From: Euryarchaeota archaeon UBA82
GTDB lineage: Archaea; Thermoplasmatota; Poseidoniia; Poseidoniales; Poseidoniaceae
Assembly: GCA_002496635.1 (NCBI GenBank)
Contig: DAKQ01000030.1
Span: forward strand, 1-17,213
Length of the DNA: 17,213 bases
Direction: 5' to 3'
Position numbers and translations under genes: made by a program
Notes under the pieces: generated by a model
What the model saw: the letters and a program-made list of their open reading frames with translations, nothing else
Told to the model about the DNA's origin: nothing
Databases searched by the model: none
Shown: positions 1,125 through 6,111 of the stretch, piece after piece
How the letters are laid out: each line of letters begins with the position of its first letter
Position numbering within the stretch: position 1 is the stretch's first letter

Positions 1125-2678
1125 ATGGATTACCTCTCACTCTTGGTCGTCCTGCCAATTATGGCAAGTATTTTCCTTCTGATTCTGACTTCTCGTCTTT
1201 CAGCAGAGTCTCGAAGAAAGTTTGACTCTTCTATTCGAATGGCAAGTCTTGGAATTACACTGGTTATGTTTGCACTTGCAACGTTCATGTTCCTCGGTCA
1301 AATTGGTGACGTCGATTGGAAGGATATTGCTTTCAATAATTTTGAATTCAAAGAATCTTATGTCTGGATTGAACCGCTTGGAATCGAATGGAGTGTTGGT
1401 GTCGACGGGCTGTCCTTCCCAATGGTTTGGCTGACAACACTTCTCTTACCAATTACGATCATCGCAACATGGAACGAAAAGGCAGGAGCAACCTACTTCC
1501 CTCTCATTCTCATGATGGGTGGTGCGCTTGTCGGTGTCTTTGTTGCACTTGACATGTTCATGTTCTACGTGTTCTGGGAATTGACATTGATTCCAATGTT
1601 CTTCCTTATTCTCAAGTGGGGTGGGAAAGACAGAAAGTATGCTGCTCAGAAGTTCTTCATCTACACCTTCACAGCATCTGTTGTCATGCTTCTAGGTTTG
1701 TTCACTATGTATTTCCTCATGGATACACAAACCTTCTCGATGGTAGATATGGTTACTGAAGCAAATGGAGCGAACAGCAGCGGCGTCTGGCTTGGTCTTG
1801 AAGTTCAGAAAGCACTCTTCATTATGCTCATGCTTGGATTCCTTGTGAAACTCCCTGCTGCACCATTCCACACTTGGCTGCCCGATGCTCACGTACAAGC
1901 GCCTACAGGTGGTTCAATGCTGCTTGCTGGTGTTATGCTGAAGATGGGCGCTTACGGAATGTTCAGGCTTCCAATCTCTCTCTTCCCACATGCACTTGAA
2001 GAATTCAGATTCATCATCATGCTGATTGGGTTGATCTCCTTGGTATGGGGTGCAATCGTTTGTCTTGGACAAACCAACCTCAAGAAGATGGTTGCATATT
2101 CCTCCGTTTCTCACATGGGTGTTATCCTTCTTGGTATCGCAAGTATGCAACCTCTTGGATGGGCTGCAGCTCTCTTCATGATGTTCGCACACGGAATCAT
2201 CAGCCCAATGCTCTTCGCAGTTTGTGGTGCATTCAAGCATCACTATCACAGCATGGAAATTGGTGCAATGCGAGGAATGGCAAAACATTCCCCTTGGCTT
2301 GCAACGAGCATGATGTTTGGATGGATGGCTTCTCTTGGTCTTCCACTACTTGCTGGATTCGTTGCTGAATTGATGCTTATGGTGGCCTACTGGCATGCCT
2401 ACGGATGGTGGATTCTCTTACCAGGTCTCGTTCTTGCTCTTACTGCAGCATACTATCTCTGGTCGATGCAACGAACCATCTTCGAAGGTGGGGATGAAAC
2501 TCAACCTCCAGAAAGCCTGCATGGTGATCCAGTTCCAGATATTGACAATTCAGAGAAGTTTGCAATGCTTCTTCTCGCAGGATTTACAATACTCTTCGGA
2601 ATTATGCCATGGATTTTCCTTGATATGATGAGCGAATGGACGATAAATGCCATGAAATTCCTAGGGTTTGGTGTTTGA
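1125..2678 (+). CDS. nuoM: NADH-quinone oxidoreductase subunit M
   Basis: This is the second antiporter-like subunit of the complex I membrane arm and drives proton translocation coupled to quinone reduction. Its 517 residues match the normal family length and are almost entirely hydrophobic helices. The conserved pump residues are visible: Glu152 in FWELTLIP and Lys242 in VKLPAAPFHTWLPDAH. Both are offset by 8 from Glu144 and Lys234 of E. coli NuoM, which supports the assignment and the N-terminus. The motif QAPTGGSMLLAG and a second conserved segment NLKKMVAYSSVSHMG are also present. The start is 2 nt after nuoL, behind a near-perfect Shine-Dalgarno. nuoN follows with only 1 nt between stop and ATG. 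Confidence 0.95.
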   Translation: MDYLSLLVVLPIMASIFLLILTSRLSAESRRKFDSSIRMASLGITLVMFALATFMFLGQIGDVDWKDIAFNNFEFKESYVWIEPLGIEWSVGVDGLSFPMVWLTTLLLPITIIATWNEKAGATYFPLILMMGGALVGVFVALDMFMFYVFWELTLIPMFFLILKWGGKDRKYAAQKFFIYTFTASVVMLLGLFTMYFLMDTQTFSMVDMVTEANGANSSGVWLGLEVQKALFIMLMLGFLVKLPAAPFHTWLPDAHVQAPTGGSMLLAGVMLKMGAYGMFRLPISLFPHALEEFRFIIMLIGLISLVWGAIVCLGQTNLKKMVAYSSVSHMGVILLGIASMQPLGWAAALFMMFAHGIISPMLFAVCGAFKHHYHSMEIGAMRGMAKHSPWLATSMMFGWMASLGLPLLAGFVAELMLMVAYWHAYGWWILLPGLVLALTAAYYLWSMQRTIFEGGDETQPPESLHGDPVPDIDNSEKFAMLLLAGFTILFGIMPWIFLDMMSEWTINAMKFLGFGV

Positions 2679-2679
2679 A

Positions 2680-4359
2680 ATGAGTGCGAATACATTTGAC
2701 ATGGATATGCTCCAAACGCTTGGGCCTGAACTCACAGTCTTTGTGGGTCTTCTTCTGATCATGATCGTTCCAAATCTTGGAAATGGGAAATTCCGTATCC
2801 CTGGAACCCAGATTAGACTCCCTTGGTTCCTTGGAGGTACTCGATACAAGGCAGTCTCTTCACCTCGTTTGCCGGGACTCATTGCGGTATTGACAATGTT
2901 GATTGCTCTAATTCAGGTCATTTGGTATCTTCTCGACTCAAGTTCCGTCAGTGAAGAAGTAACAAGTGAAAGCGGTTATGAGATTCTCAAAGTGAATTTA
3001 TTCTCCCGTCTATTCGAGGGTATCTTCTTCGCAGCACTCTTACTTGCAGCTCTTGCATCGCTTGACAGACTTCCAACTGGCTCTATGAAGAGTGATGATA
3101 TCGATGTGTTGTTTAACAATCGTAGACAAGCCGATTTCTATATTCTAATGCTCACATCTGCATTAGGAATGAGCGTTGTTGCGCTTGCTCAAGACATGTT
3201 CGTTCTCTTCATTGGACTTGAACTTGCATCATTCTCAACATATGTTCTGGTTGCCTTCCACAAGGAAACACGAGCAGGTTCAGAAGGTGGTGCAAAATAC
3301 TTCATCGTGGGTTCAGTTGCTTCCGCAGTAGGTCTCTATGGTCTTTCAATGCTCTATCTCTGGGCGGGTTCATTACAATTCGATGTTCTTGCAGCAACAT
3401 GGGCTTCTGACGGAGCAAACTCGCTGAGCATGATGGCGCTTGGATTTGTACTCGTTGGATTTGCATTCAAGATCAGTGCAGCGCCATTCCACTTTGCTGC
3501 ACCTGATGCCTATTCAGGAGCAAACAGCCCAGTTGCAGGTGTTCTTGCAACAGCCAGTAAGGCAATGGGAATGCTCGGACTGATGCGTGTTCTGTTGTTG
3601 ATTACAATCCCAGATGCAACTGAAGATGGCTCTGCTGTTTGGATTGGCTTACTCGGCATAATGGCTGCTGTGACAATGACATGGGGTAATATCGCAGCGC
3701 TTGGCAGCGAGAATCCAAAGCGTATGCTTGCCTACTCTTCCGTTGCTCATGCAGGATACATGCTTGCAGCATTGACTGCAATTGGAGCATGGAATTGGGG
3801 TCTTGTTGAAAACTCTGGCAATGCAAAGGATGTGGTGGTTGCAGCACTTCTCTTCCACATGGTCGTTCTCGTCTTCTTCAAACTTGGAGCCTTCCTTGTC
3901 TTGGGTCTGCTCGAAATGGAAGGCGGCGCATCTCGTTTGTCTTCACTCTCTGGACTTGGAAAGCGAGAACCATTGCTCGCAGTCGCTATGTTCCTGTTCA
4001 TGATATCTCTTGCAGGTGTTCCGCCAATGGCTGGATTCCTCTCGAAACTCCTCGTTATCATGGGAATTGTTGAGGTTGCTACTGGATCTGGTTCACTTGA
4101 TTCATTGATGGATGCTCATTGGGTTTGGTGGCTTGCGTTACTGATGGTTCTCAACAGCGCAATTTCGATGTTCTACTATCTACGTATTGGCGTAGTTATG
4201 TATTTCCATGAGCCTGAAGAAGGTCGTCAAGGCCCTCTTGCTTCTGGTGTTTCAATTCGACTTGCAATTGCTATCTGTGCAATAGGAACAGTTGCCTTTG
4301 GACTGGTTGGTGGCGAGTTGATCGACCTATGTCGTGATGCAGCCCAATCCCTCGGTTGA
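2680..4359 (+). CDS. nuoN: NADH-quinone oxidoreductase subunit N
   Basis: This is the third antiporter-like subunit of complex I (about 559 residues), the last gene of the operon. The family signature is clear: Glu181 in GLELASFSTYVLVAF and Lys264 in FKISAAPFHFAAPDAYSGANSP, corresponding to the essential Glu and Lys of the pump channel, plus KRMLAYSSVAHAGY. The ATG at 2680, 1 nt after the nuoM TGA, is preferred. An in-frame TTG at 2668 would overlap nuoM and add only four residues. GGTG about 6 nt upstream may act as the ribosome-binding site. It is longer than E. coli NuoN, partly through an extended loop between the first helices (about residues 30-100). Confidence 0.94.
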   Translation: MSANTFDMDMLQTLGPELTVFVGLLLIMIVPNLGNGKFRIPGTQIRLPWFLGGTRYKAVSSPRLPGLIAVLTMLIALIQVIWYLLDSSSVSEEVTSESGYEILKVNLFSRLFEGIFFAALLLAALASLDRLPTGSMKSDDIDVLFNNRRQADFYILMLTSALGMSVVALAQDMFVLFIGLELASFSTYVLVAFHKETRAGSEGGAKYFIVGSVASAVGLYGLSMLYLWAGSLQFDVLAATWASDGANSLSMMALGFVLVGFAFKISAAPFHFAAPDAYSGANSPVAGVLATASKAMGMLGLMRVLLLITIPDATEDGSAVWIGLLGIMAAVTMTWGNIAALGSENPKRMLAYSSVAHAGYMLAALTAIGAWNWGLVENSGNAKDVVVAALLFHMVVLVFFKLGAFLVLGLLEMEGGASRLSSLSGLGKREPLLAVAMFLFMISLAGVPPMAGFLSKLLVIMGIVEVATGSGSLDSLMDAHWVWWLALLMVLNSAISMFYYLRIGVVMYFHEPEEGRQGPLASGVSIRLAIAICAIGTVAFGLVGGELIDLCRDAAQSLG

Positions 4360-4410: not shown

Positions 4411-5061
4411 ATGGGACGACGTCATGAAGAAAAAGTGGACGTAGAAGAACTCGCTCGTCTGGAGAATCCAGAGGGCTCTTCAGGCAAGATTCGTGTTAAA
4501 CTTCCAAATGGTGGGAAGAAGCGCGGAGAGTTTGGATTCAAGGGCGAAATGTTTGCTCTTGCTGAAGAGATTCTAGGAGGTCGCCGTGTTACTGTTCTGT
4601 GTGCTGATGGGGAGACCCGTATGGCACGTATACCTGGTAAAATGCGTCGTCGACAATGGGTTCGTGAAGGCGATCTTATCATTGTCTGGCCATGGGATTT
4701 TCAAGATTCAAAAGCTGATGTAAAGCATCGTTATACAAAGACTCAGGCTATGTATTTGTCAAGAAAACAAGTTCTCCCTGAAGTCGTTGACATGTTCGGT
4801 ATGAACGATCGTGTCGATGATGATGATGATGACGACTTATTCGGCATCTCTGATGCACCTGAGGCTGCTGATGACGATGATGATGACTTGTTTGGTGGAG
4901 ATGACGATGATGACGATGACGACTTGTTTGGAAGCGATGATTCGGTTGAAGAAGTCGTTGAAGAGCCAGTCGTAGCAGAAGAACCGGCAGAATCAGTTGA
5001 GCCAGAACCGCTTGATGATGATGATGATGATGACGAAGATATCGACGCATTGTTTGCTTAA
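4411..5061 (+). CDS. eif1A: Translation initiation factor aIF1A with long poly-Asp tail
   Basis: This is the archaeal IF1/eIF1A homologue, an OB-fold (S1-like) protein that binds the A site of the small subunit during initiation. Residues about 20-115 carry the family core: KIRVKLPNG, GEMFALAEEILGGRRVTVLCADG, RMARIPGKMRRRQWVREGDLIIV and a basic stretch after it. At 216 residues it is roughly twice the usual archaeal length (about 100-115). The extra part is an acidic tail from residue 136: three Asp runs of 6-8 residues, each followed by LFG (143-145, 160-162, 172-174), a Glu/Val/Pro linker, and a final Asp7 run ending EDIDALFA. Eukaryotic eIF1A also has an acidic tail, ending DIDDI, which contacts eIF5B. 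GGTGA lies 6 nt before the ATG. RIO1 follows after 54 nt. Confidence 0.92.
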   Translation: MGRRHEEKVDVEELARLENPEGSSGKIRVKLPNGGKKRGEFGFKGEMFALAEEILGGRRVTVLCADGETRMARIPGKMRRRQWVREGDLIIVWPWDFQDSKADVKHRYTKTQAMYLSRKQVLPEVVDMFGMNDRVDDDDDDDLFGISDAPEAADDDDDDLFGGDDDDDDDDLFGSDDSVEEVVEEPVVAEEPAESVEPEPLDDDDDDDEDIDALFA

Positions 5062-5066
5062 TCATC

Positions 5067-5132
5067 GGAGGATTGATGTTCCTCTTCAACATACTCACAA
5101 CAGGAAGGGTACACTATGTCTCGTTCAAATGA
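5067..5132 (+). other. Possible 18-codon leader ORF with its own Shine-Dalgarno, overlapping the RIO1 start
   Basis: GGAGG (5067-5071) sits 4 nt before an ATG at 5076. The frame reads MFLFNILTTGRVHYVSFK and stops with TGA at 5130-5132, overlapping the RIO1 ATG (5116) in another frame by 17 nt. It may be a coupling or leader peptide, or simply a chance ATG behind a stray purine tract. RIO1 has its own purine-rich site (AGGAAGGG) just upstream. Confidence 0.25.
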
Positions 5133-6111
5133 TGATTGGGATGAGCTCAGTGAGCGTACAAGCCAACGACGCAAGTCTCGTAAGAAACGCAACAAACGAA
5201 CGATGTCATTGGATGAACAAGCAGATGCTGATTTTGATGAACGCCAGGCATCCAAATTTGTTGAAGATCTAGCGGGCAAAAACAGCTCATTCAATTGGAT
5301 GAAAGATGAGCGTAATAAGCGAATGTTCAATCAAATTGAAAATCGTATTCAAGGGGCAATAGGAGGAGGGTCCTATGATTGGGTTGATCGAAGAGTCTTC
5401 GACCAAGTCTTTGATCGGCTTACATTGATGTCGCTTTACAAAATGATGAATTCAGGTATCTTAGATACACTCGATTTCCCAATAGCTCGCGGTAAGGAAG
5501 CGCACGTATTCCACGGAACTGATCATGATGGCAAATCTGTAGCAGTGAAAATTTTCCATACATCAAATGCAGTCTTCAAGAATCTCATGCAATACATCGA
5601 GGGTGATCCTCGTTTTGGTGGTCTTCGTCGCCGTCATCGAGATCTCGTCGACATTTGGGTGCGAAAAGAGCACCGTAACCTAACAAGACTTCATCGCTGG
5701 GGCTTACCAGTCCCTCGCCCAATCGCTGTTCAGAAAAATGTCCTTGTCATGGAATATCTTGGTAGTGAGACACAACCTTCTCCGAAGTTACGAGATGTCA
5801 GAGTCGAAGATCCTCAACCTGTATTCGATACAATGCTTGAGTTCTTGGCAGTTTCTTGGCAGAAGGCAGACCTCGTCCATGGTGACTTTTCACCGTTCAA
5901 TATCTTGTGGCATAATGGAGGCCCAATCGTCATAGATGTAGGCCAAGGGGTGGTTCAACATCATCCAAAAGCGAAAGAATTCCTTGTTCGAGATGTTACG
6001 AGATTGGTTGAGTGGGCGAACAAAAATGGTATTAACATCACTCTTGCAGATGCAATGTATGATGTCTTAGAAATGGATTTGTCACACGTTCACAGAATGG
6101 AAGAAGAATGA
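5116..6111 (+). CDS. rio1: Serine/threonine protein kinase/ATPase RIO1
   Basis: RIO1 is an atypical kinase/ATPase that acts in late maturation of the small ribosomal subunit. Catalytic landmarks are visible: the RIO nucleotide loop ARGKEAHVF (124-132), ATP-binding Lys145 in VAVKIF, the catalytic loop LVHGDFSPFNIL with Asp257 and Asn262, and the metal-binding IDVGQ with Asp274. At 331 residues it is longer than many archaeal RIO1 proteins (about 250-290). The extra part is a charged N-terminus (about 1-50, SQRRKSRKKRNKR), followed by the RIO-specific winged-helix region. AGGAAGGG precedes the ATG by about 6 nt. It lies in the same direction as aIF1A, a common archaeal pairing. Its stop faces that of the KH gene with one base between. 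Confidence 0.94.
   Translation: MSRSNDDWDELSERTSQRRKSRKKRNKRTMSLDEQADADFDERQASKFVEDLAGKNSSFNWMKDERNKRMFNQIENRIQGAIGGGSYDWVDRRVFDQVFDRLTLMSLYKMMNSGILDTLDFPIARGKEAHVFHGTDHDGKSVAVKIFHTSNAVFKNLMQYIEGDPRFGGLRRRHRDLVDIWVRKEHRNLTRLHRWGLPVPRPIAVQKNVLVMEYLGSETQPSPKLRDVRVEDPQPVFDTMLEFLAVSWQKADLVHGDFSPFNILWHNGGPIVIDVGQGVVQHHPKAKEFLVRDVTRLVEWANKNGINITLADAMYDVLEMDLSHVHRMEEE

Follow-up and report, generated by a model that had tools for sequence, protein, structure and literature searches.

The window, by which we mean the whole analysed stretch of 17,213 nucleotides from the archaeon UBA82, carries on its forward strand a gene for the translation initiation factor aIF1A, followed on the 3′ side by a gene for a RIO-family kinase (5116-6111). 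The encoded protein belongs to the aIF1A family by virtue of its OB-fold core, where PF01176 (eIF-1a) aligns with residues 45-107 at 5e-20 and 71.4 bits against a cut-off of 30.2, and it is the single PF01176 match in its own assembly. C-terminal of this core the chain continues for approximately 80 residues as an acidic tail, in which three runs of Asp, seven, six and eight residues long, are each followed by LFG, hereafter called beads, and a fourth run of seven Asp leads into EDIDALFA and the stop codon. An earlier note made from the letters alone had singled out this arrangement, and the stretch it named, 4816-5061, starts exactly at the codon that opens the first Asp run and closes with the stop codon. 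Tandem Repeats Finder (TRF) recognizes part of the tail as a two-copy, 36-bp repeat (4870-4940, 82% match), so that the number of beads stems in part from tandem duplication. The arm beyond the core is probably disordered; the AlphaFold2 model of the protein, built with 28 close relatives, has a mean pLDDT of 43.6 and is poor throughout, the OB core included. At the other end of the window, positions 148-180 encode a His/Asp repeat (HHDDHGDDHGDDHHDD) over a 12-bp tandem repeat, within a membrane-protein-like frame (1-1122) that we take to resemble an NADH dehydrogenase subunit.

Features of the aIF1A gene and of its C-terminal tail, in window coordinates
Feature	Position	Strand	Details and basis
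aIF1A gene	4411..5061	+	216 aa; stop codon 5059-5061; ORF list and PF01176
OB-fold core (PF01176)	4543..4731	+	Pfam match
Core-end D-M-F-G (within V-D-M-F-G)	4789..4800	+	order-wide comparison
Bead 1: seven Asp and LFG	4816..4845	+	sequence, codon pattern, alignment
Bead 2: six Asp and LFG	4870..4896	+	sequence, codon pattern
Bead 3: eight Asp and LFG	4900..4932	+	sequence, codon pattern
Imperfect 36-bp tandem repeat spanning beads 2 and 3	4870..4940	+	TRF
Glu/Pro/Val-rich linker	4933..5013	+	sequence
Terminal acidic run and tip, DDDDDDDEDIDALFA	5014..5058	+	sequence, pattern search, alignment

In acidic, low-complexity sequence some resemblance to other tails is cheap, and the motifs were accordingly searched as codon patterns throughout the UBA82 assembly (175 contigs totalling 1.62 Mb, with a completeness of 94.5%), with the reversed pattern as control. 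DDDLFG is encoded three times, each time in the aIF1A tail (control, 0), and acidic-x-acidic-x-Phi-F-[GA]-stop once, at the aIF1A end (control, 0); shuffling of this tail yields a mean of 0.26 motifs versus the three observed. The bare pattern Phi-x-x-[LF]-F-[GA]-stop, which omits Met before F, occurs at chance level, with 42 matches versus 40 in the control, 30 of them with a true stop codon and 12 with TGG. Three of the 30, aP1, aP0 and aIF1A, combine an acidic run with the tip; another is a 419-residue frame ending AGIKLLFA without an acidic lead, and the remaining 26 are frames of at most 101 residues. No fourth protein ending in an acidic run and PhixxLF[GA] was found in the assembly by these pattern searches.

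We then followed the tail through the order, which is identified as Poseidoniales by named relatives; among the 120 relatives listed for the window protein, two are assigned to Candidatus Poseidoniaceae. An order-wide search recovered aIF1A from 267 of 292 genomes, and 100 of these proteins, covering 22 genera and including that of UBA82, were read, leaving out L084 (a run of N) and L034-L036 (repeats of the UBA82 gene); one of the hundred, L085, runs off its contig, so that 99 tails are complete. All 99, in 22 of 22 genera, are long acidic extensions, of 39-127 residues (median 75) with a D+E content of 33-56% (median 44%). The tip Phi-x-x-[LFMVI]-F-[GADE] closes 96 of them, a final PA being allowed in one genus, and shuffled tails end in Phi-x-x-Phi-F-[GADE] in 170 of 198,000 trials (0.09%). 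The stricter [DE]-Phi-x-x-Phi-F-[GA] fits 90 of the 99 ends, and D-[ILV]-D-x-Phi-F-[GA] fits 70. DIDSFFG (28), DIDSLFGPA (15), DIDALFA (14) and EINDLFG (11) are the most frequent ends, and identical tips are written in many DNA versions: 21 for the 28 DIDSFFG, 13 for the 15 DSLFGPA, 12 for the 14 DIDALFA and 7 for the 11 EINDLFG, as expected if selection acts on the peptide. Chance or sequencing artefact as the origin of the tail is ruled out by its conservation.

The internal beads follow a different pattern. Counted as internal [DEGSN][LMIF][FW][GASED], with the last ten residues left out, they number 0 in 25 of the 99 tails, 1 in 38, 2 in 4, 3 in 16, 4 in 12, 5 in 3 and 6 in 1; a related count without W, taken over whole tails, gives 234 versus 18.1 in shuffles. 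Among 28 aligned close relatives, the window protein included, the first D-L-F-G and the DIDALFA end are invariant (28/28), and the total of internal beads ranges from 2 to 4. Runs of N fall within the acidic tail or just past the core in L084, L337 and L338, which hints at a repeat that is difficult to assemble and at bead counts that may be wrong in draft genomes, as most of those used here are. A further element lies at the end of the core itself, where all 100 order proteins have [ILVMG]-[DN]-[ILVMFT]-F-G; outside the order, 36 of 50 aIF1A proteins stop at [ILVM]-[DN]-[ILVM]-[FY], no more than four residues from the C-terminus. Since the core-end unit DMFGMND resembles the unit of bead 1, DLFGISD, the beads may have been copied from the core end, by duplication of its Phi-D-Phi-F-G element. 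In several genera (L004-L016, L067, L068) a proximal DDxG[IL][FW] motif directly follows the core.

Three of the 99 tails lack the tip: L086 and L101 of genus g22, and L098 of genus g17. A search of 15 more genomes gave 14 aIF1A genes, one of them from a genome that had been counted before; it added seven proteins of g17, none of which has the tip, and seven from elsewhere that all have it. In g17 the tip is thus absent from eight of the nine genomes read, the remaining one ending SLDDLFE, and in g22 from both; with 10 of 11 genomes of the two genera devoid of it, the tip is dispensable in some lineages. An aIF5B tree, which represents one gene and has several weak nodes, groups g17 with g22 (support 96) as sister to the tip-bearing g15 (90), a position that makes loss of the tip likelier than repeated gain. 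Most g17 and both g22 proteins (L086, L098, L101, L342-L348) keep the proximal motif as G-[IL]-W in the absence of the tip, that of L342 being DDIW.

To look beyond the order we searched the whole phylum, where 139 of 145 genomes yielded aIF1A; 106 of these lie outside Poseidoniales. Of these 106 proteins we read 50, the 30 best-scoring and 20 chosen ones (many with long frames, three from the same class), and none bears an acidic tail with a tip: the frames stop at or near the core. L130 continues for about 20 mildly acidic residues past the core without the tip, and L138-L140, which belong to the sister family within that class, have no acidic tail and end ILDIY. L139 and L140 also have a Lys-rich open frame before the core, perhaps an N-terminal extension. 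In a scan of named genomes, a set that may overlap with the unnamed one, the best 80 loci carry mostly Thermoplasmata-type labels and in one case a Proteobacteria label; three, labelled Poseidoniales, Marine Group II or Thalassarchaeaceae, end DDIDSFFG, and the other 77 have no such tail (72 by script, 5 by eye), L310 having the same kind of short end as L130. The Haloferax aIF1A paralogs, given as 11.5 and 11.2 kDa (PMC8576121), are too small for such a tail, and the matches listed by a search of the open-licence literature contain no prior description of an acidic tail on Poseidoniales aIF1A.

The simplest account of this distribution is that the tail was gained once in the order's ancestor and the tip lost in one lineage. 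Its absence from the rest of the sampled phylum suggests that its likeness to the eukaryotic tail, as in the human and yeast factors, is convergent rather than inherited. Lateral transfer of eIF1A from eukaryotes was considered and rejected, the four best PDB matches of the protein being archaeal. Set against these data, the earlier note was right that ordinary archaeal aIF1A lacks the tail, at least in the phylum sample, and its worry that the feature might be private to one genome falls away with the terminal motif found in 96 of 99 tails across the order. Its emphasis on the repeated LFG motifs needs shifting: the end and the first bead are conserved, but the internal repeats are the variable part.

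The build of the tail and its conservation are firm; the partner most readily suggested for it is aIF5B, a reasoned guess with about an even chance at best. The factor is present in 29 of the 30 genomes searched. In the order (21 of 21 aligned sequences, that of UBA82 and 20 others) it carries a six-residue insertion of the type LGxxRQ, seen in none of seven other Thermoplasmatota and situated after the P-loop region and ahead of the conserved block that follows it, before switch I. The order's proteins also have, further along, A-G and W where six of the seven outgroup sequences, those with letters at these sites, have P-R and F, as well as two basic gains and several fixed differences. These changes could reflect a partner-side change or plain lineage drift, a comparison of one clade (21 sequences) with seven outgroup sequences being unable to link them to the tail. 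In the UBA82 genus (L179 and L180, the latter being the UBA82 gene, 1450-3270) aIF5B has four more residues, RHIA, after the common FWGR end, an extension absent from the other genera read. In a Haloferax study tagged aIF1A paralogs made few contacts, which its authors ascribe to low affinity or to the tag, and aIF5B was co-isolated by 11 other factors (PMC8576121).

In light of these observations, we propose that the aIF1A tail is a convergent, eIF1A-like tether that recruits aIF5B via its stalk-peptide pocket, a reading to which we give slightly less than an even chance. The arm, most simply of a single origin in the order's ancestor, would work like the C-terminal tail of eIF1A, the extreme end of which recruits eIF5B (PMC6298780). 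While the OB core occupies the 30S A site, the tip of the arm, D-I-D-x-[LF]-F-[GA], aided in many genera by additional D-[LM]-F-[GA] beads, would bring aIF5B-GTP to the initiation complex and link its arrival to the joining of the subunits. The tip would dock in the aIF5B pocket normally taken by the stalk peptide, the arm holding the GTPase until the 50S stalk takes over. Published stalk data (PMC6791870) fit LF and MF beads, internal copies and LFGPA ends: the contacts common to both EF1A states are made by L106-F107 (P. horikoshii) or M108-F109 (A. pernix), 14-mer peptides bind with Kd values of 10.4 and 23.6 μM, effective binding is lost when the three final residues are removed, and the peptide tolerates one additional residue at its C-terminus. 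A fuller version, in which the order independently rebuilt the eIF1A-eIF5B tether with stalk-type chemistry, presenting one to seven [LM]F[GA]-type tips, handing aIF5B over to the 50S stalk at joining and perhaps deriving its beads from duplication of the core end, we hold only tentatively. The 25 of 99 tails without an internal bead, and the g17 and g22 proteins without the tip, count against the tether proposed here.

A general stalk mimic, whose beads would bind the pockets of aEF1A, aEF2, aIF5B and ABCE1 and serve as a local reservoir or compete with the stalk, with no special role for aIF5B, is a doubtful alternative. The [LM]F[GA] tip with its acidic lead is common to aP1 and aP0, one stalk peptide is accepted by several GTPases and by ABCE1 (PMC6791870), and up to six internal beads would suit multivalent, weak binding. 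The UBA82 aP1 indeed has the LFG-type end that the earlier note expected of it (GLGSLFG, within EEEEEEAGGFEGLGSLFG), and its aP0, named on account of its length, its end and its position next to aP1, the PF00428 match being below cut-off, ends EEEEEEGGGFAGLGDLFG; the PF00428 matches of this assembly lie on contig C46 and none is in aIF1A. A PF00428 search of 30 further genomes gave matches in 29, each with two stalk proteins, and a script for frames ending in [LFIM]F and at most four more residues, six or more of their last 35 residues being acidic, recovered both in 29 of 29 loci. All 58 of these ends read FxGLG[SDN][LM]FG regardless of the clade's aIF1A end, and this lack of covariation argues against close mimicry: aIF1A ends vary by clade, and FxGLGx before a final LFG is absent from all those read. 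The window tail does show the stalk-type Phi-x-x-[LM]-F-G after an acidic run, as IDALFA with A for G. Moreover, the most conserved element is a single terminal tip and not the bead array, and a competitor for elongation factors would have no obvious use on a 30S-bound factor. Between the stalk mimicry and the eIF1A convergence that the earlier note had offered side by side, convergence thus fares better, with D-[ILV]-D-x-Phi-F-[GA] at 70 of 99 ends, and strict stalk mimicry worse.

The tail could instead act on the ribosome, either as a P-site arm that tunes accommodation of the initiator tRNA or start codon choice, or as an RNA mimic folded back against the basic OB core. In eIF1A the scanning enhancers are two direct repeats within the acidic tail (PMC3434475), an eIF1A tail in the PDB (NFGFESDEDVNFEFG, then EELDIDD near the end) has the aromatic pairs FGF and FEF, and many genera of the order have a bead adjacent to the core. 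This reading is nonetheless unlikely, for it leaves the conserved Phi-x-x-Phi-F-[GA] end unexplained.

Closer to the tether proposed here, but with poorer prospects still, is a functional copy of the eukaryotic contact, with the tip docking on domain IV of aIF5B at the very site used by the DIDDI end of eIF1A. The tail occupies the same position on an orthologous protein, 70 of 99 ends fit D-[ILV]-D-x-Phi-F-[GA], and human EIF1AY ends DDDEDIDDI (DDIGDDDEDIDDI; PMC12249807), sharing the word DDDEDID with the window protein. The other 27 of the 28 aligned relatives have D in place of the E, so that the conserved likeness comes down to D-I-D-x-Phi; the window protein does not end DIDDI but, two residues further on, DIDALFA, with an F-[GA] that is absent from eIF1A. 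Subunit joining in eukaryotes needs the last residue of eIF1A and helix H14 of eIF5B, H14 being eukaryote-only (PMC4231746). All 22 aIF5B proteins read from the order keep a C-terminus of archaeal type, in which W[GA] stands at the end or close to it; alignments with eukaryotic eIF5B stop at query residues 563-574 of 606, those with full-length archaeal aIF5B reach 600-603, and comparison by sequence found neither H14 nor an alignable eukaryotic C-terminus in the order's proteins. The C-terminus thus kept lies where a review puts an extra archaeal helix that may block the eIF1A docking site (PMC7531240), provided that this helix is, as we infer, the C-terminal stretch aligned here. From the archaeal C-terminus and the missing H14 counterpart, docking would probably take place in the stalk-peptide pocket rather than at the eukaryotic domain IV site.

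Two further readings carry little weight. Recruitment of a partner outside the translational GTPases, such as a degradation factor or a clamp, is very improbable: DIDSFFG, the I-x-x-F-F of 28 of 99 ends, resembles the hydrophobic part of the PCNA-binding box, but Gln is missing from the box start and the lead is strongly acidic, which rules out a PCNA box in the tip; other clades have LFA or LFGPA, and there is no functional link. A non-adaptive or merely electrostatic low-complexity tail grown by codon repeats, for which the 2 to 4 internal beads among close relatives, the 36-bp tandem repeat and the runs of N in the tails of three genomes might speak, is scarcely credible given a tip in 96 of 99 tails with synonymous variation beneath and a DDDLFG pattern found nowhere else in the assembly.

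The proposed convergent tether to aIF5B can be compared with three known systems. Ordinary aIF1A, as in PDB entries 1jt8, which we take to be the M. jannaschii protein, and 4mno, has the same OB core (E-values 1.4e-22 and 2.5e-19) but is 102 and 115 residues long and has no acidic extension. In the P. abyssi-type chain 7zag_6 (134 residues) the core matches at 43-121, and its extra residues are therefore N-terminal. Two reviews, one of which identifies 4mno as P. abyssi aIF1A (PMC6412873), state that archaeal aIF1A lacks an acidic C-terminal extension, that the acidic tail of eIF1A contacts eIF5B and that archaeal aIF1A perhaps makes no aIF5B contact (PMC6412873, PMC7531240). Poseidoniales, an abundant group of marine archaea, break the first half of this contrast between a tailed eukaryotic and a tailless archaeal factor, with a tail that is absent from their sampled relatives outside the order.

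The archaeal stalk proteins aP1 and aP0 share with the aIF1A tail a C-terminus in which an acidic run precedes Phi-x-x-[LM]-F-G. They differ in their Glu-rich runs and in FxGLGxLFG, whereas in the window protein Asp continues as far as the tip, GLG is absent, the motif has internal copies and PF00428 does not match, and the stalk likeness accordingly seems looser than that to eIF1A. Eukaryotic eIF1A differs in turn: the order's tip has two more residues, F-[GA], its beads are LFG, MFG or LFA versus the FGF and FEF of the PDB eIF1A, and its aIF5B has no H14 counterpart by the searches above. What the two tails have in common is their acidity, their position after the OB core of orthologous factors, their repeated hydrophobic pairs and the terminal D-I-D-x-Phi.
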